This document shows, piece by piece, positions 43,739-55,247 of a DNA stretch of 64,000 nt. Below the pieces are notes generated by a model. That model ran no database searches, was not told where the DNA came from, and saw only the letters and a program-made list of their open reading frames with translations. Positions within the stretch are counted from its first letter, which is position 1; every line of letters begins with the position of its first letter. A program made the position numbers and the translations under genes. The DNA is from Streptomyces sp. TLI_235 (GTDB lineage Bacteria; Actinomycetota; Actinomycetes; Streptomycetales; Streptomycetaceae): NCBI GenBank assembly GCA_002300355.1, contig NSGV01000001.1:1-64000 (forward strand), written 5' to 3'.

Positions 43739-44935
43739 ATGAGCCGGATATGGGCGGGGATCGACAGCGGCAAGGGCCACCACCACGGCCTGGCCCTGGA
43801 CGCCGAGGGCAAGACCCTGCTGTCGCGGCGGGTGGCCAACGACGAGCCCGAGCTGCTGCAACTGGTCGGCGATGTCCTCGCCCTGGCCGACGGCCGTGAG
43901 GTGACCTGGGCGATCGACATGACCGGCGGGGAGCCGGCCCTGCTGCTGAGTCTGCTGATCGCCCACGGGCAGGACGTCCTCTACCTGCCCGGCCGCCTGG
44001 TGAATCGGGCCGCCGACGGCTACCGCGGCGAGGGCAAGACCGACGCCCGCGACGCCTACGTGATCGCCGACCAGGCCAGGATGCGCCGCGACCTGCAACC
44101 GATCCGGCCCGGCGACGAGGCCGCGATCGAGCTCAGGCTGCTGACCGGCCGGCGCGCCGACCTGGTCGAGGACCGCACCCGCACGGTCAACCGCCTGCGC
44201 GGCACCCTGCTGAGCATGTTCCCGGCCCTGGAGCGGGCTCTGGACGTGACCAACGTCGGCCCGCTCAAGCTGCTGACCGGCTACCGGACCCCGGCCGCGA
44301 TCCGCCGCGCCGCGGTCACGAGGCTGTCCAAATGGCTGGCCAATCGCAAGGTCCGGAACGCGAGAGCTCTCGCCGAGACGGCAGTTGAGGCTGCTGAGCG
44401 GCAGTACACCTCCATTCCCGGGGAGAAGACCATCGCCAGGCTGGTCCATACCCTGGCCGAGGGGGTGATGACCCTCAACGAGCACATCGCCGAGATCGAC
44501 AAGCTCATCGAGGGCCGGTTTCGCGAGCACGAACTCGCCGAGATAGTCGAGAGCGTCCCGGGCATCGGCACCGTCCTCGGCGCCGAGTTCCTGGCCGGCG
44601 TCGGCGGCAGCCTGGACGGCTTCGCGTCCCCTGACGCCCTGGCAGCCTTCGCCGGCGTTGCCCCCGCGCCACGGGACTCGGGCAAGGTCAGCGGCGACCT
44701 CCATCGTCCGAGCGTCTACCACCGCAGGCTCCAGCGCGTCTTCTACACCTCCGCGTTGGTCAGCATCCGTTGCGACCCGAACTCACGGACGTTCTACGAC
44801 CGCAAGCGCGCGGAAGGCAAGCGGCACGTCCAAGCCGTGATGGCCCTGGCCCGCCGACGCGTCAACGTCCTGTGGGCCCTGATCCGTGACCGGCGGTGCT
44901 ACCAGGTCGCACCGCCAGTCACCGAAGCCGCGTGA
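43739..44935 (+). CDS. IS110-family transposase (RuvC-like plus Tnp20 domains)
   Basis: A 398-residue protein. The N-terminal RuvC-like domain begins IWAGIDSGKGHHHGLALDAE (first Asp), with AIDMTGGEPALL and GEGKTDARDAYVIADQAR (DARDA motif). The C-terminal Tnp20 domain has ESVPGIGTVLGAEFLAGVGG, DALAAFAGVAPAPRDSGK (with the conserved Ser downstream), YHRRLQRVFYTSALVSIRCD and RKRAEGKRHVQAVMALARRR. It is full length and uninterrupted, so likely active. It would act as an RNA-guided recombinase like other family members. Confidence 0.95.
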   Translation: MSRIWAGIDSGKGHHHGLALDAEGKTLLSRRVANDEPELLQLVGDVLALADGREVTWAIDMTGGEPALLLSLLIAHGQDVLYLPGRLVNRAADGYRGEGKTDARDAYVIADQARMRRDLQPIRPGDEAAIELRLLTGRRADLVEDRTRTVNRLRGTLLSMFPALERALDVTNVGPLKLLTGYRTPAAIRRAAVTRLSKWLANRKVRNARALAETAVEAAERQYTSIPGEKTIARLVHTLAEGVMTLNEHIAEIDKLIEGRFREHELAEIVESVPGIGTVLGAEFLAGVGGSLDGFASPDALAAFAGVAPAPRDSGKVSGDLHRPSVYHRRLQRVFYTSALVSIRCDPNSRTFYDRKRAEGKRHVQAVMALARRRVNVLWALIRDRRCYQVAPPVTEAA

Positions 44936-44943
44936 CAACGACA

Positions 44944-47904
44944 TTAGGAAGCGACGGCGAGTGCGAGGGCGAGGTCTCGCAGGCCGTCGCGGCCGGGCCG
45001 GCCGGTCTTCCGGATCAGCCCGGCGACGTGCTTCTCCACGGTGCGCGGGGAGATGGAGAGCCGGCGGGCGATCTCCTGGTTGCCGGGCCGTTCGGCGAGC
45101 AGGACGAGGACCTCGAACTCGCGCAGCGTCACCCCGAGCACCCGCAGGTCGGCGGGGACCTGGTCGCGGCCGGTGCGGCGCTGCGCGACCCCGGCGCCGG
45201 CCCGCCGGAGCAGTCCGCGGCAGGCGCCGGCCACCGCCGGCACGTCCAGGCCGTGGAAGTACTCCTCGGCGGTGCGCAGCCACGTGGTGGGGTCGCCCCA
45301 GCCGTCGGCGAGCGCGGCCTCGGCGGCCAGGCGCAGGCCGAGGTGGTAGCCGGTCGGGAAGAGGTCGGCGGCGTCCCGCCGGACCTCGTCGACGGTGCGG
45401 GCGGCCCGGTCGGCGTGGCCCTCGCGGCCGAGCAGCACGGCGTCGGCGAGCCGCAGGAACTGCCGGTTCCAGGCGAGTTCGGCGGCGGGCGCGGTGGCGC
45501 AGGCCGCCAGACGGGCCCGGTCGGCGCGGCCGGCGACGGTGTCGAGCAGCGGGCGCAGCCCGTAGCGGCCGGAGAGGTAGAAGACGCTGGGGTGGTCGTC
45601 CTCCCAGGCGGCCGCGGCGGCGAGTTCGGCCTCGGCGCCGGCCCGGTCCTCCTCCAGCAGGGCGCAGACCGCCCGGCAGAGGCCGAACAGGACGGGGGTG
45701 AGGAAGGACGCCTCCTCGCCGCCGGCCCGGTCGAAGCGCTGCAGTTCGCGTTCCATGTCGCGGCGGCGGCCGCGGTGCGCGGCGAGGGTGGCGGCGGTGA
45801 GCAGCAGGTACCGGTGGGTGGCGAGGTTGCGGAGCCGGGCGGAGGCGTCGAGGCTGCGGTCGACGATCGCGGTGGCGGCGGCGTGGTCGCCGCGCAGGAC
45901 GGCCTGCATGGCGAGCAGGCCGTCGGTGGTCTGGGTCTGCAGCAGGGCGCCGAGGCCGCCGGCGATGTCCCGGGCCTGTTCGAGGCGGCGTGAACTCCCG
46001 GTCCGCATGAAGGCGTTGACCCCGAGCCGGACGAGGGCCTCGACCCGCCAGACCGGCAGGGCGTGCTGCTCGGCGACAGCGAGCATCCGCTCCAGGCAGG
46101 CGTCGGCGTGGTCGAAGCCGCGTTCGCGGCCCAGCAGCGCGAGCAGCTGCCAGGCCTGGCAGGCGACGACGGGCAGGGGTGCCCGCTCCGCGGTCTCGGC
46201 GGCCTCCCGGGCGAGGCGTTCGGCCTGTTCGGGGGGCGGCAGCTGACCGTCCGGGCCGGGCAGCAGGGTGAGGTGGCCCTCGACGACGGCGAGGGCGGCG
46301 CGCTGGTCGGCCGGCGGCGTCGCGGCGGCCGAGGGTCCGGCGGCCGGGGCGGGGTCGGTGAGCAGGGCCCGGGCGGCGGCGAGTTGGGCGAGCGAGTCGG
46401 CGCGCCGTTCGGCCATGACGGCCTCCCAGGCGAGCCGGGTGTGCAGGGCGATCCGGCGGTCGGTACCGAGGGCGGAGGGCAGCGCGAGGTCCGGGGAGTC
46501 GGCGACGGCGAGGGCCCGGTCGAGCTGGCCGGCCTCGGCGAGGGCCAGGGCGAGCGACTCGGCGACGCCGGTGCGGTCGGGCGGGGCGGCGAGCCGGTGG
46601 GCGTGCTCCAGCAGTGCGACGGCGGAGGCGCTGGCACCGCTCTCGCGGGCCCGCCGGCCGGCCTCGGCGTAGCGGAGGGCGGCGGCGGCCGGGTCGCCGG
46701 CGGCGGCGAGCAGCCGGGCGACCAGGCGGCACTGCTCGTCGTCGCCGAGGCCGGGGTCGGCGGCCTCCAGCGCGGCGGCCGCGGACCGGGCGAGGGCCGC
46801 GCGTTCGGCGGGCGGGAGGGTGGCGAGGACGGCCTCGCCGGTGAGGGCGTGGCGGAAGGCGTACTGGTCGTGCCGGGTGCCGTCGGGCCGGACGAAGCCC
46901 GCCTCGGTGGCGGCGCGCAGCCCGGCGAAGAGTTCGGGTTCGGCGCTGCCGGTGGCCGTCCGCAGGGTGGTGAGGGAGAACCGGGTGCCCAGCGCGGCCG
47001 CGGCCTGCAGCAGGCCGCGGACGGGCGGGTCGAGGACGGCGAGCCGGTGGCCGTAGGCCTGGACGACGGCGTCCGGGACGCTCGCGGCGGGCTCGCCGAC
47101 CAGCTGCCAGCCGTCCGGGCCGCGCAGCAGGGCGCCGGAGCGGACCAGGTCGGCGAGCAGTTCCTCGACCAGGTACGGGTTGCCCTCGCCGCCGCCGTAC
47201 AGCCGGGCGGCCAGGTCGTCGGGGACGCCCGCGGGTGTGGTCTCCAGGCAGCCCGCCGCGATCGCGCGGACGTCGGCGGCCTCCAGCGGTCCGAGCGCGA
47301 CCACGGAGGCGACCCGGCGGCGGGCGGCCGACCGGGCGAGGTCGAGTGCCGGGCCGGTCTCCGGGCGCAGGGTCACCACCAGCAGGACGGGCAGGTCGGC
47401 CAGGTTGTCCACCAGGTAGTCGAGGACGGCGAGGGTTTCCGAGTCGGCGGCGTGGAGGTCCTCCAGCAGCACGGCGCAGCCGGTGCCGCGGCCGAGGACG
47501 GCGAGCAGCCGCAGGACGGCCTCGGCGAGTTCGACGACGCTCTCCGGGTAGCCGGGCCCGCCGGGGTCGCGCCACTCGGGGACGAGTCTGGCCAGCGCGG
47601 GCCGGTAGGGGGCGAGTTCCGGGCCGGTCGGCAGGCCGGCGCCGCGGGAGAGCGAGGACAGCGCCTCGATCAGGGGACGGAAGGGCGCGGTGAGGCCGGT
47701 GGCCCCGGCCCGGCCGCGCAGCACCGGGACGCCGAGCGCGCCGGCCAGGGCGGCGCACTCGGCGACCAGGCGGGACTTGCCGATCCCGGCCTCGCCCAGC
47801 AGGACGAGGCCGCGGCCGGCGCCCTTCCGGGCGTCCGTCAGCAGCTGCCGGGCGAGGTCGAGTTCGGCGTGCCGGCCGACGGTGGTCGGAGAGCTGATGC
47901 GCAT
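44944..47904 (-). CDS. LAL-type LuxR regulator (large ATP-binding)
   Basis: A 986-residue regulator starting at the ATG at 47904. The N-terminal ATPase has Walker A VLLGEAGIGKSRLVAECAAL near residue 35 and Walker B region TGCAVLLEDLHAADSETLAV near 145. A long helical middle follows. The C-terminal LuxR helix-turn-helix reads LREFEVLVLLAERPGNQEIA, RRLSISPRTVEKHVAGLIRK. LAL proteins often act as pathway-specific activators of secondary metabolism. Here the gene lies 29 bases downstream of the candidate lanthipeptide precursor, so it is the probable activator of that cluster. Its TAA stop lies in the ATTAGGAAG copy at the IS110-type boundary. Confidence 0.9.
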   Translation of the reverse strand: MRISSPTTVGRHAELDLARQLLTDARKGAGRGLVLLGEAGIGKSRLVAECAALAGALGVPVLRGRAGATGLTAPFRPLIEALSSLSRGAGLPTGPELAPYRPALARLVPEWRDPGGPGYPESVVELAEAVLRLLAVLGRGTGCAVLLEDLHAADSETLAVLDYLVDNLADLPVLLVVTLRPETGPALDLARSAARRRVASVVALGPLEAADVRAIAAGCLETTPAGVPDDLAARLYGGGEGNPYLVEELLADLVRSGALLRGPDGWQLVGEPAASVPDAVVQAYGHRLAVLDPPVRGLLQAAAALGTRFSLTTLRTATGSAEPELFAGLRAATEAGFVRPDGTRHDQYAFRHALTGEAVLATLPPAERAALARSAAAALEAADPGLGDDEQCRLVARLLAAAGDPAAAALRYAEAGRRARESGASASAVALLEHAHRLAAPPDRTGVAESLALALAEAGQLDRALAVADSPDLALPSALGTDRRIALHTRLAWEAVMAERRADSLAQLAAARALLTDPAPAAGPSAAATPPADQRAALAVVEGHLTLLPGPDGQLPPPEQAERLAREAAETAERAPLPVVACQAWQLLALLGRERGFDHADACLERMLAVAEQHALPVWRVEALVRLGVNAFMRTGSSRRLEQARDIAGGLGALLQTQTTDGLLAMQAVLRGDHAAATAIVDRSLDASARLRNLATHRYLLLTAATLAAHRGRRRDMERELQRFDRAGGEEASFLTPVLFGLCRAVCALLEEDRAGAEAELAAAAAWEDDHPSVFYLSGRYGLRPLLDTVAGRADRARLAACATAPAAELAWNRQFLRLADAVLLGREGHADRAARTVDEVRRDAADLFPTGYHLGLRLAAEAALADGWGDPTTWLRTAEEYFHGLDVPAVAGACRGLLRRAGAGVAQRRTGRDQVPADLRVLGVTLREFEVLVLLAERPGNQEIARRLSISPRTVEKHVAGLIRKTGRPGRDGLRDLALALAVAS

Positions 47905-47933: not shown

Positions 47934-48128
47934 TCAGAACGGGAGGGTCTGGGTGGTGAACGGCGCGGTGGTGTCGTTCAGCGCCAGGCTCTGCCCGGAC
48001 AGCAGCTCGGCGCGGCGGCCGAGGCCGGCACCGAACGTCAGCCGGATCTCGTCGGCCGGGTGGTCGGCTGCGGGTTCGGGGCGGGTGGCGGGGCGGTGCT
48101 GGGGGCGGGTGCGGTCGGTGGTGTGCAT
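47934..48128 (-). CDS. Candidate class II lanthipeptide precursor, cysteine-free
   Basis: A 64-residue peptide from the ATG at 48128, with GGAAGGGA upstream, between the lanM gene (68 bases) and the LAL gene (29 bases), all on one strand. The leader-like half is charged (HRPATRPEPAADHPADEIRL). The C-terminal end LALNDTTAPFTTQTLPF is rich in Thr. It contains no cysteine, so it could not form lanthionine rings. If it is the LanM substrate, the product would carry dehydrated Thr/Ser only. No GG-type cleavage site is obvious (FGAGLGRR is the closest). Position and composition support a precursor; chemistry is inference. Confidence 0.6.
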   Translation of the reverse strand: MHTTDRTRPQHRPATRPEPAADHPADEIRLTFGAGLGRRAELLSGQSLALNDTTAPFTTQTLPF

Positions 48129-48196
48129 GGCTGTGCGGTTCCCTTCCTGAGGTGTGCGCCGGGTCCCGGGTGCGGGACGGTCCGGCGTTCGGTGGG

Positions 48197-51181
48197 TCAG
48201 CCCGTCCGTGGCGGCTCCAGGAGCAGCACCGACGGGATGCGGTCGGCGAAGCCCAGTCGCAGCAGCCCGTGGCCGATGCCGGCCAGGCCGTTCAGCAGGC
48301 TCGGGCAGGGGACGGCGCCGGGTGTGCCGCAGACCGGCCCGTCCCGGTCGAGGTCTCCGAGGAGCAGATCGGTGCGCCGGGCCAGGACGGCGACGGCCTC
48401 CGACACGGCGGCTGCGGGGGCTGCTTCGGCGGCGGCTGCTTCGGTGGTCGCGGTGGCGAGGACGTCGAGCACCCCGAGCTCGCCGTGGCAGAGACTGTGG
48501 TCGGTCGGCGGGCGTGTCCGGGCCAGTGCCCGCACCGCGGCCGCCGCGTCATCGCCCGGTCGGCCCCGGGCGGCGGCGACGAGCCCGGCCAGGCCGTGGC
48601 ACCAGCGGGCGTCGCCGTCCTGGACGGCCCAGGCGTCGAGGGAGCCCGGCAGCCCGCCCGGCCGGACAGCTGACGTGGCGTCGGACCGTCCCGGCGCGCC
48701 GCGCAGGCGGTCGAGGGCCCAGGTGACACCGGCGCGCCCGAGGGCGAGGCCGGTCCCGGCCGGTGGCGTGGCCACGGCCAGCCGCGCCGCGCAGGCTTCG
48801 GCGGCGTGGAGTGCGGCGGGTGCCCCGGTGGCCTCGTGGACGGCGAGGAGGGCGGCGAGGCCGCCGGCGGTGCCGTCGAGGACCGCGGCACCGCTCTCGG
48901 CGGCGGCCGCGGCGGCGGTCAGCTCGACGGCGGCGGGAAGGAGGGCGCGCAGGTCGGCGTCGTCGAGCTCGGCGGCGAGGTGGGCGAGGGCGTAGCTGAT
49001 GCCCCCGAGGCCGGCGAAGGCGCCGGAGCCGACGGCGCCGAGGTCCTCGGGGGCGCCCGCGAGGCGGTCGAGCAGCGTGGGCAGCGGCCGCAGCGCGCGG
49101 TGGGCGGCCTCGGCGTAGCGGGTGTCACCGGTGATCCGGGCCAGCTGTGCCAGGAAGAGCGCGACCCCGGTGTAGCCCGTGCCCAGGTCGGCGCCGAGCG
49201 GCTGCAGCCGCCAGTACCGCTCCCCGAGTACCCCGAGCCCCAGCCAGTTGGTGCGCCCGCCGCCGGTCAGGCCGAGGTCGAGCACCCGCTCCCCCACGGC
49301 CCGCGCCGCGTCCAGCAGCCGCCCCGGGTCGATCGGCCGACGGCCTGACGCCTCACCCTGGGCACCACCCGGGCGGTGGGGGTCAGGGCGATGGGGGTCA
49401 GGGCGATGCGGGTCCGCGGTCGAGCGGGCGGCCATGGCGGCGCGGATGGTCCACTCCTGACGGGTGGTGCCCGCCGTGTCGAGGGCGCGGACCCTGGTGA
49501 GGACGCGGTCCAGGGCGGTCCGGTCGAGGGCGGCGGGGATGCGGTGGCCGGTGGCGTTCCAGACGTCGACCGTGCCGGGGCGGGTGGTGAAGAAGGGGAC
49601 GTCGCCGGCGCGCAGGTCGGCGAGTTCGTCGGCGAGGAGCAGGGGGTGGGCGGGGCCGCCGAGGTCCTCGGTGCGCAGCAACTCGAGGACCCGGTCGCGG
49701 TCGGCGGCGTGCCGGAGCAGGTCGGGGTGGGTGGATTCGTCGAGCAGCAGCGCGTAGACGCGGGTGGCGCGGGCCACCAGGCGGGTCTCGTCGGCGGCGA
49801 AGCGGCGGAGCGGTCCGTGCGGTCCGGTGAGGTGCTCGCTGTGCCGGGCGAGGGTGTGGTGGGCGGCGCGGAAGCCGGCGACCAGGTCCTCGGTGTGGCG
49901 GGCGGGGTCGGCGGGGGTGCCGTGCAGGTGGGGCCGGTTGGCGGCGCCGGGGAGGACGGCGGCGCGGCGGACGAGCCGCATCCGGTCGGTGCCGGGCTCG
50001 GCCCAGTCGACGGCCCGGGCGGGACCGGGGGCGCCGGCGTCGCCGCCGAGGCCGGAGGCGTCGACGGCGGTGGTCTCACCGACCATCAGGACGGGCAGCA
50101 GGCCGATGCGGTGGACGGAGGCGTCCAGGGCCGCCCGGGCGGGGTCGTCGCCGGCGTCCGCCGGGGCGGGCGGATGGAAGAGCGTCTCCACGTCGACGGG
50201 GACGGGCTGGTCCCGGCAGGCGATCAGGTTCTCGCAGTGCAGGTCGGTGGCGTCCACGGCGTGCAGCAGCGCGAGCAGGGCGCCCTGGCGGCGGTAGAAG
50301 CGGCGGACCTCCTCCTCGCTGCGGCAGTCGGCGGGGGCGATGTGCTCCGTCCAGCCGTACCGCCCGCGGTCGAGGACGGCGGGGACGCGCAGGCCGGGCG
50401 AGCCGGGGGTGGTGTCGAACCAGCGGACGAGCTCGCCGAAGTGCCGGTCGACGGCGAGCGGCCGCGGCTTGTAGACCACCCGGGCGCCGTCGGCGAAGCG
50501 GAGGACGGCGACACTTCGGCCGCGCCGGTGCCGGTCCCCGGCGGCGGTGTCGATGCGGGTCAGCGGGCCGGGGTCGGTGCCGCCGAGCAGGGTGGATGTG
50601 ATCGCCGCCCGGTCGGCGGCGAATCGGTCGAGCAGTTCGGTGAGGGCGGCGCCGGCGTGCAGCGCGGCCTGGCCGAGCAGGCGGCCGAGCACGGGGTAGC
50701 GGGTGACGAGGGCGTGGGCGCCGCTGCGGCCGGCGGTGAGGGCGACGAAGTCGTCGAAGCGTTCGGCGGAGGTGGCGCCGGCGAGCCGGCCGGCGTCCCG
50801 GGCGCTGTGCAGTTCCAGCACGAGGGTTCGGGCGGCGATCCGGGTGAGCGTGTCGGTGAGGGTGGCGGTGAACCGGGCGCGGACGGCGGGCAGGTCGACG
50901 CGGGCGGCGGGCGGCGGGGCCGGCAGGCGGGCGGCGGCCGACTCGGCGAACCGGGCGAGGACGGGGGCCAGCGCTCCCATGCCGGGCGGTGCGGCGACGG
51001 TCGGCCCTCCCGCTCCGTGCGGCCGGTGGTACCGGGGCGCGGCGGTGAGCGCCGCGTCGACGAAGACCGCCCAGTCCGGGGCTGGGCCGCCGGACGGCTC
51101 GGCGGCCGAGACCGCTCGCCGCCACCAACCGCCCTCACCGGCGGCGGCCTTGCCGGCCGCCGTGGTCCGACCACCGCTCAC
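48197..51181 (-). CDS. lanM: Class II lanthipeptide synthetase (LanM)
   Basis: A 994-residue bifunctional LanM. The kinase-like dehydratase half has VVYKPRPLAVDRHFGELVRW near residue 235, TDLHCENLIACRDQPVPVDV near 315 and DVETLFHPP. It phosphorylates and eliminates Ser/Thr hydroxyls. The LanC-like cyclase half (about 640-994) keeps all zinc ligands: WCHGLAGLVAA near 860 and SLCHGELGVLDV near 898, with GGRTNWLGLGVLGERYWRLQ earlier. So ring formation should be possible. It starts at GTG 51181. No LanT transporter or leader protease gene is nearby. The adjacent downstream small peptide is the only evident substrate and lacks cysteine. Confidence 0.94.
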   Translation of the reverse strand: MSGGRTTAAGKAAAGEGGWWRRAVSAAEPSGGPAPDWAVFVDAALTAAPRYHRPHGAGGPTVAAPPGMGALAPVLARFAESAAARLPAPPPAARVDLPAVRARFTATLTDTLTRIAARTLVLELHSARDAGRLAGATSAERFDDFVALTAGRSGAHALVTRYPVLGRLLGQAALHAGAALTELLDRFAADRAAITSTLLGGTDPGPLTRIDTAAGDRHRRGRSVAVLRFADGARVVYKPRPLAVDRHFGELVRWFDTTPGSPGLRVPAVLDRGRYGWTEHIAPADCRSEEEVRRFYRRQGALLALLHAVDATDLHCENLIACRDQPVPVDVETLFHPPAPADAGDDPARAALDASVHRIGLLPVLMVGETTAVDASGLGGDAGAPGPARAVDWAEPGTDRMRLVRRAAVLPGAANRPHLHGTPADPARHTEDLVAGFRAAHHTLARHSEHLTGPHGPLRRFAADETRLVARATRVYALLLDESTHPDLLRHAADRDRVLELLRTEDLGGPAHPLLLADELADLRAGDVPFFTTRPGTVDVWNATGHRIPAALDRTALDRVLTRVRALDTAGTTRQEWTIRAAMAARSTADPHRPDPHRPDPHRPGGAQGEASGRRPIDPGRLLDAARAVGERVLDLGLTGGGRTNWLGLGVLGERYWRLQPLGADLGTGYTGVALFLAQLARITGDTRYAEAAHRALRPLPTLLDRLAGAPEDLGAVGSGAFAGLGGISYALAHLAAELDDADLRALLPAAVELTAAAAAAESGAAVLDGTAGGLAALLAVHEATGAPAALHAAEACAARLAVATPPAGTGLALGRAGVTWALDRLRGAPGRSDATSAVRPGGLPGSLDAWAVQDGDARWCHGLAGLVAAARGRPGDDAAAAVRALARTRPPTDHSLCHGELGVLDVLATATTEAAAAEAAPAAAVSEAVAVLARRTDLLLGDLDRDGPVCGTPGAVPCPSLLNGLAGIGHGLLRLGFADRIPSVLLLEPPRTG

Positions 51182-51399: not shown

Positions 51400-52083
<684 letters not shown>

Positions 52084-52172
52084 GGATGTGCGCCGCCTTT
52101 CTGCGGTTGCCTCGGCGATCGCCTCTGCGGCTGCCGCTGCGGTGGCCCCGGCCGTTGCCGGGGTGGTCGTGG

Positions 52173-54728
52173 TCACGGCGTGCTCGCCGAGGGCGCGGGG
52201 GCCTTGTGGGCGGTGCGGGCGGCGGCGGGCAGGGCGACCACCATGGTGAGGCCGCCGCCGGGGGTGTCCTCGGCGGTGAGCCGGCCGCCCATGGCCTCGG
52301 CGAAACCGCGGGCGACGGCGAGGCCGAGGCCGACGCCGTTGCCGCGCGGGGCGTCGCCGTGGCGCTGGAACGGCGCGAAGATCCGCTCCCGGGCCTCCTC
52401 CGGGACGCCCGGGCCGCGGTCGACGACGCGCAGTTCGACGCGGTCGCCGCCGGGCAGCCGGAGGGCGTCGGCGCGGACGGTGACCTGGAGGTCGGGCGGG
52501 CTGTACTTGACGGCGTTCTCCACCAGGTTGGCGACGACCCGTTCGAGCAGTCCGGCGTCGGCGCGGACCAGCGGCAGGTCCTCGGGGACGTCGAGCCGGA
52601 CCGTCCCGGCCGGCACGCCGGCGAGGGCGAGCGGGACGACCTCGTCCAGGTCGACGTCGCGCTGCAGCGGGTTGACGCTGCCGGTCTGCAGCCGGCTCAT
52701 GTCGAGCAGGTTGTTGATCAGCTGGTTCAGCCGGTCGGCGCCCTCCTCGATGCCTTCGAGGAGTTCGGCCTCGTCCTCGGGGCTCCAGGCGACGTCCTCG
52801 GAGCGCAGCGAGGTGACGGCGGCCTTGATGCCGGCGAGCGGGGTGCGCAGGTCGTGCGAGACGGCGGCGAGCAGGGCGGTGCGGATGCGGTTGGAGTCGG
52901 CGAGCCGGCGGGCCTCGGCGGCCTCCTCGGCGAGCCGCTTCCGCTCCAGGACGGCGACGGCCTGGGCGGCGAAGGCGCCGAGCACCCGGCGGTCGCCGGC
53001 GGGCAGCACCCGGCCGGTGAGGACGAGGGCGAGCCGGTCGCCGACGGGCACCTCGACGGTGGCGTCCTCGGGGCGGCCGGCCGGGCGGTGGCCGACCGCG
53101 GCGCGGGTCTGCCAGGGGCCGCGGTCGCCCGGGCGCTCCAGCAGCGCGACGGACTCCATCTGGAAGGTCTCCCGGACGCGTTCCAGCAGGTCCTCCGGCC
53201 CGTCCTGGCCGCGCAGCGCGCTGCCCGCGAGGAAGGCCAGGGTCTCGGCCTCGGCCCGGCTGCGGGCGGCCTGCTGGGACCGGCGGGCGGCGAGGTCGAC
53301 GACCGAGGCGACGGCGATGCCGACGCCGACGAAGACGCCGAGGGCGAGGATGTTGGCCCGGTCGGTGATGGTGAAGGTGTGCGTCGGCGGGGCGAAGTAG
53401 TAGTTCAGCAGCAGGCTGCCGACCAGGGCGGAGGCGATCGCCGGGAAGACGCCGCCGACCAGGGCCGCGCCCACCGTGAGGGTGAGGAAGAGCAGGACGG
53501 CGGTGGGCAGGCCGACGCCCGGGCCGAGGGCGAGCAGCAGCAGGGTGAGCAGCACCGGGCCGATGCAGCCGAGCAGCCAGCCCGCGACGGTGCGCAGCCG
53601 GCCGAGTTTGACGGGCAGTCGGCCGGGCAGGCCGGGGCGGCCGCGGGCGGCGTGCTCGTGGGTGACGACGTGCACGTCGACGTCGCCGGACTCGCGGATG
53701 ACGGTGGCTCCGACGCAGGGGCCGAGCAGCGAGCGCCAGGCGCGGCGGCGGCTGATGCCGACGACGAGCTGGGTGGCGTTGACGCCGCGGGCGAAGTCGA
53801 GCAGGCCGGCGGGGACGTCCTCGGCGAGCACCGCGTGGTAGGTGCCGCCGAGCTCCTCGACCAGGCGGCGCTGGGCGGCGAGTTCGCCGGGCGCGGCGAG
53901 CACGCCCGGGCCTTCGGGGCGGACGATGTGGACGGCGAGCAGTTCGCTGCCGGAGCCCCGGGCGGCGATCCGGGCGGCGCGGCGGATCAGCGTGCCGCCC
54001 TCGGGGCCGCCGGTGAGGCCGACGACGATCCGCTCGCGGGCCTGCCAGGTGGCGGCGATGCCCTGTTCGGTGCGGTAGCGCTGGAGGTACTCGTCGACCC
54101 GGTCGGCCGTCCAGAGCAGGGCGAGTTCGCGCAGGGCGGTGAGGTTCCCGGGGCGGAAGTAGTGGGAGAGGGCGGCGTCGGCCCGGTCGGGCGGGTAGAC
54201 GTTGCCGTGGGCGAGGCGGCGGCGCAGCGCCTGCGGCGACATGTCGACCAGTTCGATCTGGTCGGCGCGGCGGACGACCTCGTCGGGCACGGTCTCGCGC
54301 TGGCGGACGCCGGTGATGCCCTCGACGACGTCGCCGAGCGACTCCAGGTGCTGGATGTTGACGGTGGAGACGACGTCGATGCCGGCGGCGAGCAGCACCT
54401 CGACGTCCTCCCAGCGCTTGGCGTGCCGGCCGCCGGGGACGTTGGTGTGGGCGAGCTCGTCGACCAGGGCGACCTCGGGGCGGCGGGCGAGCACCGCGTC
54501 GAGGTCCATCTCGGTGAAGCGGGCGCCGCGGTACTCGACGGGGCGGCGGGGGACGGTCTCCAGGCCGGCCACGAGTTCGGCGGTGCGGGCGCGGCCGTGG
54601 TCCTCGACGAGGGCGATCACCACGTCGGTGCCGCGGGCGGCCCTGCGGTGGGCCTCGCCGAGCATGGCGTACGTCTTCCCGACCCCGGGGGCCGCCCCGA
54701 GGTAGATCCGAAGCCTGCCGCGTGCCAT
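52173..54728 (-). CDS. kdpD: KdpD-type sensor histidine kinase
   Basis: An 851-residue KdpD. The N-terminal KdpD/Usp half has Walker-type YLGAAPGVGKTYAMLGEAHR and VALVDELAHTNVPGGRHAKR, then a universal-stress-like region. Four membrane helices follow (about 380-480). The kinase core has LAAVSHDLRTPLAGIKAAVT (phospho-His), VVANLVENAVKYSPPDLQVT (N box) and GNGVGLGLAVARGFAEAMGG (G box). It senses K+ and turgor and phosphorylates KdpE. The ATG at 54728 is the conventional start (MARGRLRIYLG). Confidence 0.95.
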   Translation of the reverse strand: MARGRLRIYLGAAPGVGKTYAMLGEAHRRAARGTDVVIALVEDHGRARTAELVAGLETVPRRPVEYRGARFTEMDLDAVLARRPEVALVDELAHTNVPGGRHAKRWEDVEVLLAAGIDVVSTVNIQHLESLGDVVEGITGVRQRETVPDEVVRRADQIELVDMSPQALRRRLAHGNVYPPDRADAALSHYFRPGNLTALRELALLWTADRVDEYLQRYRTEQGIAATWQARERIVVGLTGGPEGGTLIRRAARIAARGSGSELLAVHIVRPEGPGVLAAPGELAAQRRLVEELGGTYHAVLAEDVPAGLLDFARGVNATQLVVGISRRRAWRSLLGPCVGATVIRESGDVDVHVVTHEHAARGRPGLPGRLPVKLGRLRTVAGWLLGCIGPVLLTLLLLALGPGVGLPTAVLLFLTLTVGAALVGGVFPAIASALVGSLLLNYYFAPPTHTFTITDRANILALGVFVGVGIAVASVVDLAARRSQQAARSRAEAETLAFLAGSALRGQDGPEDLLERVRETFQMESVALLERPGDRGPWQTRAAVGHRPAGRPEDATVEVPVGDRLALVLTGRVLPAGDRRVLGAFAAQAVAVLERKRLAEEAAEARRLADSNRIRTALLAAVSHDLRTPLAGIKAAVTSLRSEDVAWSPEDEAELLEGIEEGADRLNQLINNLLDMSRLQTGSVNPLQRDVDLDEVVPLALAGVPAGTVRLDVPEDLPLVRADAGLLERVVANLVENAVKYSPPDLQVTVRADALRLPGGDRVELRVVDRGPGVPEEARERIFAPFQRHGDAPRGNGVGLGLAVARGFAEAMGGRLTAEDTPGGGLTMVVALPAAARTAHKAPAPSASTP

Positions 54729-55247
54729 GTGCACCATTCTCGTTCCGCTGCCGCGCCCGACACTGCTTCGGACGCCTGTTCGCGCCACCGAGCCTAGATC
54801 CACACCCGGGCGAGGTGCCCCGTTTGTCCGCTTCGTGGGGAGGATCCTGGCGCTTTCTTGACACAGAGGGCGCACCGGGGCGAGCAATTGCATATGACTT
54901 GCAAGAAGGAAAGTAGTGCATCAGGATGATGAGCGCGAGGTCGGCCGGTCGGCCGTCCGGGGCGCCCTGCGTCCTTCCTGGCCGACGATCGTCTTCCCAA
55001 CCGGCGCCCGCCGGGACGCGGCCGACCCCGCGCGTGACGCCGTGCGCCCGAGGACCGCCGGCCGGCGGGACCCGCGGGTGGGTTGGGCCCGCCGGCCGGC
55101 GCTCGCACGCCACGGGGACCTCGCCGGAGTGCAGGTTGCGGATCCGGAAGGCGGCGCCGGGGGCCGCCCAGGACGTGCCGTCCGGACCGGCGGTCGGGAA
55201 GGCATAGATCCGCAGCCGGGCGGCGGCCAGTCTGACGATCAGTCAAT
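54729..55247. other. Intergenic region with a possible gene fragment
   Basis: 519 bases upstream of kdpD. Around 55080-55240 the minus strand reads a plausible protein-like stretch (LRIYAFPTAGPDGTSWAAPG, AFRIRNLHSGEVPV) that has no start codon after an upstream stop and fades into Pro/Gly/Arg low complexity. It may be the tail of a lost gene. No kdpFABC sequence is seen. The left part should hold the kdpD promoter. Confidence 0.4.

Follow-up and report, generated by a model that had tools for sequence, protein, structure and literature searches.

Lanthipeptides are defined by a thioether ring. What, then, might a lanthipeptide synthetase make of a peptide that contains no cysteine? The question is raised by a locus of Streptomyces sp. 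TLI_235, within a stretch of 64,000 nucleotides (positions 1 to 64,000 of contig NSGV01000001.1; "the window" refers to this whole stretch), in which a class II synthetase gene, lanM, is followed by a gene for a 64-residue peptide and by a regulator gene. An initial annotation, made from the DNA letters alone, had offered three alternatives: a product carrying only dehydroamino acids, a thiol supplied from elsewhere, or a true precursor encoded elsewhere. In our analysis the first of these is the best supported, as the three genes form a conserved block whose LanM probably works as a dehydratase to yield a predicted lanthionine-free, dehydrobutyrine-rich peptide. We consider dehydration to a lanthionine-free product probable because the dehydratase residues of the LanM are kept and the acid histidine of its cyclase is missing.

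The peptide gene and its conserved setting

The block and the parts of its peptide gene are as follows.

48197..51181, minus strand: lanM, class II lanthipeptide synthetase with a kinase-like dehydratase and a LanC-like domain, 994 amino acids (TIGR03897, PF13575, PF05147)
47934..48128, minus strand: precursor peptide gene, 64 amino acids, cysteine-free (profile family A1; in the LanM-regulator interval in 65 of 67 loci)
44944..47904, minus strand: regulator of the LAL type, AAA_16 and C-terminal LuxR (GerE) domains, 986 amino acids (PF13191 and PF00196 over cut-off)
47994..48128, minus strand: leader, residues 1-45 (end inferred); H23, P24, I28, L30, R39 and L42 invariant in 21 of 21 rows of alignment A1
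47937..47993, minus strand: inferred core, residues 46-64, QSLALNDTTAPFTTQTLPF; contains six Ser/Thr and is free of Cys, Lys and His
47952-47954, minus strand: core Thr59 codon; invariant in 21 of 21 rows

The three genes lie in line on the minus strand of the window, with gaps of 68 bases between lanM and the peptide gene and of 29 bases between the peptide and regulator genes; the regulator is full length, at 986 amino acids versus a family median of 988. The inventory given by the initial annotation holds for LanM and peptide and had overlooked the third gene, the AAA_16 and LuxR regulator, as well as the missing acid histidine described below. Its description of a 64-residue peptide that includes DTTAPFTTQT and has no cysteine was confirmed by translating 48128..47934 (minus strand), which gave zero Cys over the full length.

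When the peptide alone was used as a query, matches at E 0.01 were obtained in 29 of 150 relatives, and all of the 20 matched loci that were fetched with their flanks contained a LanM and a like regulator with the peptide between them. An alignment of 21 peptides (A1) has seven invariant columns, six in the leader and T59 in the core, and a leader consensus of WKxP...R......HPAGEIxL...GRRAxLL; at leader position 26 the window peptide has Asp, versus Gly in at least 90% of rows. A profile built from these 21 peptides was used to find 67, so that the larger set leans towards A1-type leaders. The more divergent peptides of L053, L171 and L177, those of L051 and L052, and weak-hit loci such as G040 and G002 are not among the 67, and the peptide start in L044 was set by alignment and not by a start codon. 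Within this set, the order LanM-peptide-regulator on a single strand was found in 65 of the 67 loci read, the two exceptions (L092, and L136 on an 8 kb contig) being without a LanM hit. The regulator is the next gene wherever it was found, and the distances to LanM and to the regulator correlate, as expected for linked genes (Spearman 0.93, 63 loci). Over 12 close pairs, the ratio of nonsynonymous to synonymous changes (pN/pS) stood at 0.47 over the full peptide and was lower in cores (0.39) than in leaders (0.53). Because of its position between LanM and regulator and this pN/pS of 0.47, the 64-amino-acid frame is a real, conserved gene and more than a chance frame. The conservation that had been proposed as a check on the small frame is thus present, both in its place in the block and in the invariant Thr59.

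Nor is the arrangement a one-off. With the A1 profile, matches were obtained in 29 of 70 genomes at genus rank, in 60 of 297 across the family and in 4 of a sample of 394 from the class, each count including the genome that holds the window. The nearest database relative of the window peptide shares 95% identity and an identical end, DTTAPFTTQTLPF. The named homologues of the profile come from Kitasatospora, Streptomyces and Actinospica, and none of the named ones among the 28 database homologues is labelled beyond 'hypothetical protein'.

Cysteine is absent from 50 of 67 cores and from 48 of 67 whole peptides. Against a background composition taken from frames chosen by a simple in-house gene finder, core cysteine stands at 1.2% of residues versus 1.0%, and 17 cores bear cysteine where about 14.5 of the 67 would be expected at the 1.0% background. 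The family cores thus neither keep nor avoid Cys. Ser and Thr together make up 27.0% of core residues versus 9.4% of the background, an approximately three-fold enrichment, and 61 of the 67 cores contain T-x-[S/T], where 500 shuffles of the same cores gave a mean of 39.7 and a maximum of 52. Cys, Lys and His are all absent from 35 of the 67. Close relatives may differ by a cysteine, as do L048 (YCTLTSPFPTCSVTG) and L042 (YTITSPFPTSSVTG). Among 17 further database homologues, some of them identical to members of the 67, five have Cys in the core.

The two halves of the LanM

The window LanM scores over cut-off with TIGR03897 (669 bits; cut-off 304), PF13575 (419 bits) and PF05147 (86 bits). Its predicted structure (mean predicted local distance difference test score, pLDDT, 88.8) shows the entire LanM fold and most closely matches LicM2 (6st5) and CylM (5dzt); by sequence, the best solved structure is LicM2 at 272 bits. 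The kinase and phosphate-elimination residues are present in the window LanM and conserved across the family: in the columns of CylM D252, H254, D347, H349, N352, D364 and R506 the residue is kept in 67-68 of 69 LanMs, the elimination residue R506 in 68 of them. The column of K274 holds K in 60 and R in 7, and that of T512 holds T in 63 and S in 5. The roles of these residues in CylM are described in passages of PMC4550811.

The cyclase half is incomplete at one position.

48599..48601, minus strand: codon of zinc ligand Cys861 (column comparison)
48485..48490, minus strand: codons of zinc ligands Cys898 and His899 (column comparison)
48740..48742, minus strand: codon of Leu814, at the position of the cyclase's acid residue, His835 in CylM and His212 in NisC (profile alignment to solved structures)

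The Leu814 column is that of His835 of CylM and of the corresponding His of LicM2 and LANCL2. The initial annotation was right about the kinase residues and all three zinc ligands, but the enzyme is not fully equipped. Among family LanMs the acid His (motif GF[AS]HGxxG) is found in 7 of 69, versus 22 of 24 LanMs outside the clade. In the other 62 of 69 it is replaced by Asp, Thr, Ala, Glu, Ser or other residues, the window sequence reading GLALGRAG. The comparison set held 27 LanMs, 22 with the His; three of the five without it (L171, L177 and L187) fall inside the clade by the tree, which gives 22 of 24. Three of these 24, L157, L158 and L175, are absent from the tree and were placed outside by their 33-37% identity to the window LanM and because no regulator was found adjacent. 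According to passages of PMC9934072, this His is the active-site acid, and its replacement is harmful in NisC, SpaC, LctM, ProcM, LanCL1 and LanCL2. In addition to the His, L171 and L177, which were found via their LanM and not via the peptide, have lost their zinc ligands, and their cores contain no Cys.

The window enzyme thus shares with the class II synthetases LicM2 and CylM its two domains, its kinase and elimination residues and its zinc ligands, and differs from them in having Leu814 for the acid His and a precursor without Cys. A tree was built from the dehydratase portions of 91 rows (a quick tree with long branches flagged, from which L129 and L136 were left out), and in it the family forms a clade of 70 rows with a support of 86 in the Shimodaira-Hasegawa-like approximate likelihood ratio test (SH-aLRT). 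Its sister is a group of four LanMs that have the acid His, the support for the joint group being 96. Directly downstream of lanM the sister group has precursors with four core cysteines, such as ...SFSCCDTTLCSDCSIH, although control and sister precursors were listed through a filter that demanded Cys near the C-terminus. This tree requires at least 14 changes in the presence of Cys and no fewer than five in that of the histidine.

What the block would make

In the mechanism we propose, LanM would bind the leader of the peptide, phosphorylate Ser and Thr residues of the core and then carry out the elimination, at up to six residues in the window peptide. Because the peptide holds no thiol, no ring would be expected within it, and a linear dehydrobutyrine peptide would be released. 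More tentatively, the product would be sensed by, or made under the control of, the adjacent AAA/LuxR regulator. The persistent zinc site may be structural, or may still hold an outside thiol. Linaridins, which contain dehydrobutyrine and no lanthionine and are made by unrelated enzymes, would be a similar product. In a bolder version, which we regard as unlikely, these LanMs would have abandoned lanthionine and their linear, electrophilic dehydrobutyrine peptides would stay intracellular, each a private ligand of the co-encoded AAA/LuxR switch, in a widespread actinobacterial class.

Several observations weigh against a LanM that only dehydrates. The three zinc ligands occur together in 64 of 69 LanMs, which would be surprising if the cyclase had no function (one or more are lost in L084, L091, L107 and L111, and L127, out of register in the cyclase, was scored as being without them). 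At position 862, beside the first zinc ligand, the window LanM has His and the family has various residues; passages of PMC9934072 describe the residue following the first ligand as variable among enzymes and less important. One or two cysteines, at varying places, are present in 17 of 67 cores, though the search for a Cys conserved in orthologues, proposed with the initial annotation as a way to refute it, found none. The distant members L051 and L052 (Crossiella and Salinispora) carry a pair of cysteines without the acid His. A coupling of Cys loss to His loss was sought within the family and not found: the His-keeping LanMs L031-L037 pair with Cys-free cores in six cases of seven, and 16 of the 17 Cys-bearing loci are without the acid His. 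Since the two are uncoupled within the family, Cys loss is no simple consequence of His loss; both are family features, but not a strict pair. Finally, L195 and L196, outside the clade, also lack the acid His (Arg and Asn in its place), and no convincing precursor was found beside them in a search that required Cys.

Could the thiol come from outside the peptide? The LanM zinc site would then add an external thiol to the dehydrated residues, much as human LanCL does with glutathione, the donor being a Cys of another peptide or a small molecule such as mycothiol, which we take to be a candidate. Retention of all three ligands in 64 of 69 LanMs, despite mostly Cys-free cores, would suit such chemistry, and an intermolecular version is performed by LanCL1 in the account given in passages of PMC9934072. 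A class III synthetase, with Cys-containing precursors, near 29 of 70 loci would also keep a partner peptide in play elsewhere in the family. Such additions, however, use the very acid His that is absent from 62 of 69 family LanMs, and the same passages report that HalM2 and NisC do not bind glutathione. A class III partner as the thiol source was ruled out for the window, in whose genome the best class III match reached 70 bits, against a cut-off of 575. On balance, we judge the external thiol to be quite unlikely.

It appears improbable to us that the LanM really acts on a Cys-bearing peptide encoded at another place in the genome and that the Cys-free peptide is a partner, regulator or decoy. 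There is precedent in the prochlorosin-type LanMs, which act on scattered substrates, some of them Cys-free (passages of PMC11251773), and our genome search covered the family leader and TIGR03898 without being exhaustive for other leaders. Within that scope, the disfavoured third alternative of the initial annotation found little to build on: in a whole-genome profile search for a second precursor with the family leader, the next match after the window peptide had an E of 0.07; no TIGR03898 precursor was over cut-off in the whole genome (best 15.2 bits versus 23.5); and there was no hidden Cys-bearing precursor among the frames read between LanM and regulator. The Cys-free peptide, moreover, adjoins LanM in 65 of 67 loci, with a core constrained as well as the leader. 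ProcM is likewise a class II enzyme, but it has a Cys-Cys-Cys zinc site according to passages of PMC11251773, as opposed to Cys-Cys-His in the window LanM, and many scattered precursors rather than one beside each family LanM. The least probable of the alternatives, in our estimate, is a LanM reduced to a kinase or to a structural remnant, with the peptide serving the LuxR-type regulator as a simple ribosomal signal. This would fit a regulator that is always the next gene where found, at distances that covary with those of LanM (Spearman 0.93, 63 loci), but would leave unexplained why R506 is kept in 68 of 69 LanMs and T512 in 63 of 69 (with five more Ser), and why the cores are rich in Ser and Thr.

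Compared with known precursors, the family has some likeness to the mersacidin and lichenicidin group (TIGR03898), to which four of the 21 peptides of the family gave weak matches (E 0.002 at best). The window peptide gives no match; GRRAxLL replaces the GG-ending leader of that group, and the core is Cys-free. A canonical precursor in L179 has a leader (VWEDPEYR...ENPAGSIEL) that resembles that of the family. In two genomes (G158:C35 and G196:C2), a member of the Cys-free family is separated by about 13-16 kb from a canonical LanM of the four-Cys kind. No account of a regulator-linked family, of Cys drift or of the missing His was found in our searches of open-licence literature, and in the available text of a 2024 survey a single sentence mentions Cys-free peptides.

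If dehydration without cyclization is indeed what these enzymes perform, the lineage would show what LanMs do without rings and would supply class II dehydratases that occur naturally as stand-alone enzymes. Precursor mining that presumes a core Cys is likely to overlook such peptides. The block also raises the question of why a zinc site persists without acid His and thiol.

Other synthetases and neighbouring genes

The window genome contains one full LanM over cut-off and, as noted, no class III synthetase, and the block therefore stands alone in it. A second LanM-like frame (G000:C1:1724484-1726421, minus strand, 1389 amino acids open) aligns with TIGR03897 over its dehydratase portion alone, at 166 and 132 bits, under cut-off. 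A similar partial match, covering roughly profile positions 90-730, was seen in many genomes of the genus and family, and these frames may represent a further family of LanM-like proteins whose cyclase has diverged or been lost. A stand-alone LanC-like frame (G000:C1:853426-853821; L141:460-1938) of 493 amino acids has GLAHG, WCYG and LCHG motifs and probably belongs to a class I system.

Neighbours were surveyed with a reach of 8-10 kb and a crude gene finder, most clusters being named by eye. By tblastn, 29 of 70 loci have a class III-like synthetase on the stretch that was fetched (31 by clustering), versus 2 of 20 control loci, both of which belong to the sister clade. That of L084 (1665-4400) was confirmed over cut-off, L121 and L131 being other examples. 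These synthetases occur in at least two arrangements, with Cys-bearing, labionin-like precursors beside some of them. The combination recalls subfamily C of PMC11251773, a possibly overlapping group in which passages of that paper describe type II and type III synthetases in Streptomyces, but its CxSxxS motif is absent from the nearby class III precursors listed, and those passages mention neither the regulator nor the missing His.

Clustering of neighbours revealed no conserved transporter, as no gene beyond LanM and regulator occurs in more than 31 of 70 loci. After the class III-like synthetase, the most frequent neighbour was an AfsR/SARP-like regulator, seen in 25 loci by clustering and in 24 by tblastn, one example of which matches NF053617 below cut-off. 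For an MFS-type transporter the corresponding counts were 7 and 2. In the window itself, the earlier remark that no transporter or protease gene is visible holds for the nine neighbouring frames scanned with Pfam. Two of the nine were assigned no family; the scan otherwise returned regulators, a Clp-type AAA ATPase, a Dyp peroxidase, an IS110 transposase, KdpD, a KdpE-like regulator and an epimerase. The IS110-type transposase gene (43739-44935, plus strand) lies tail to tail with the regulator gene, their ends eight bases apart, and kdpD and the gene for a kdpE-like response regulator (51400-54893, minus strand) lie upstream of lanM on the same strand.

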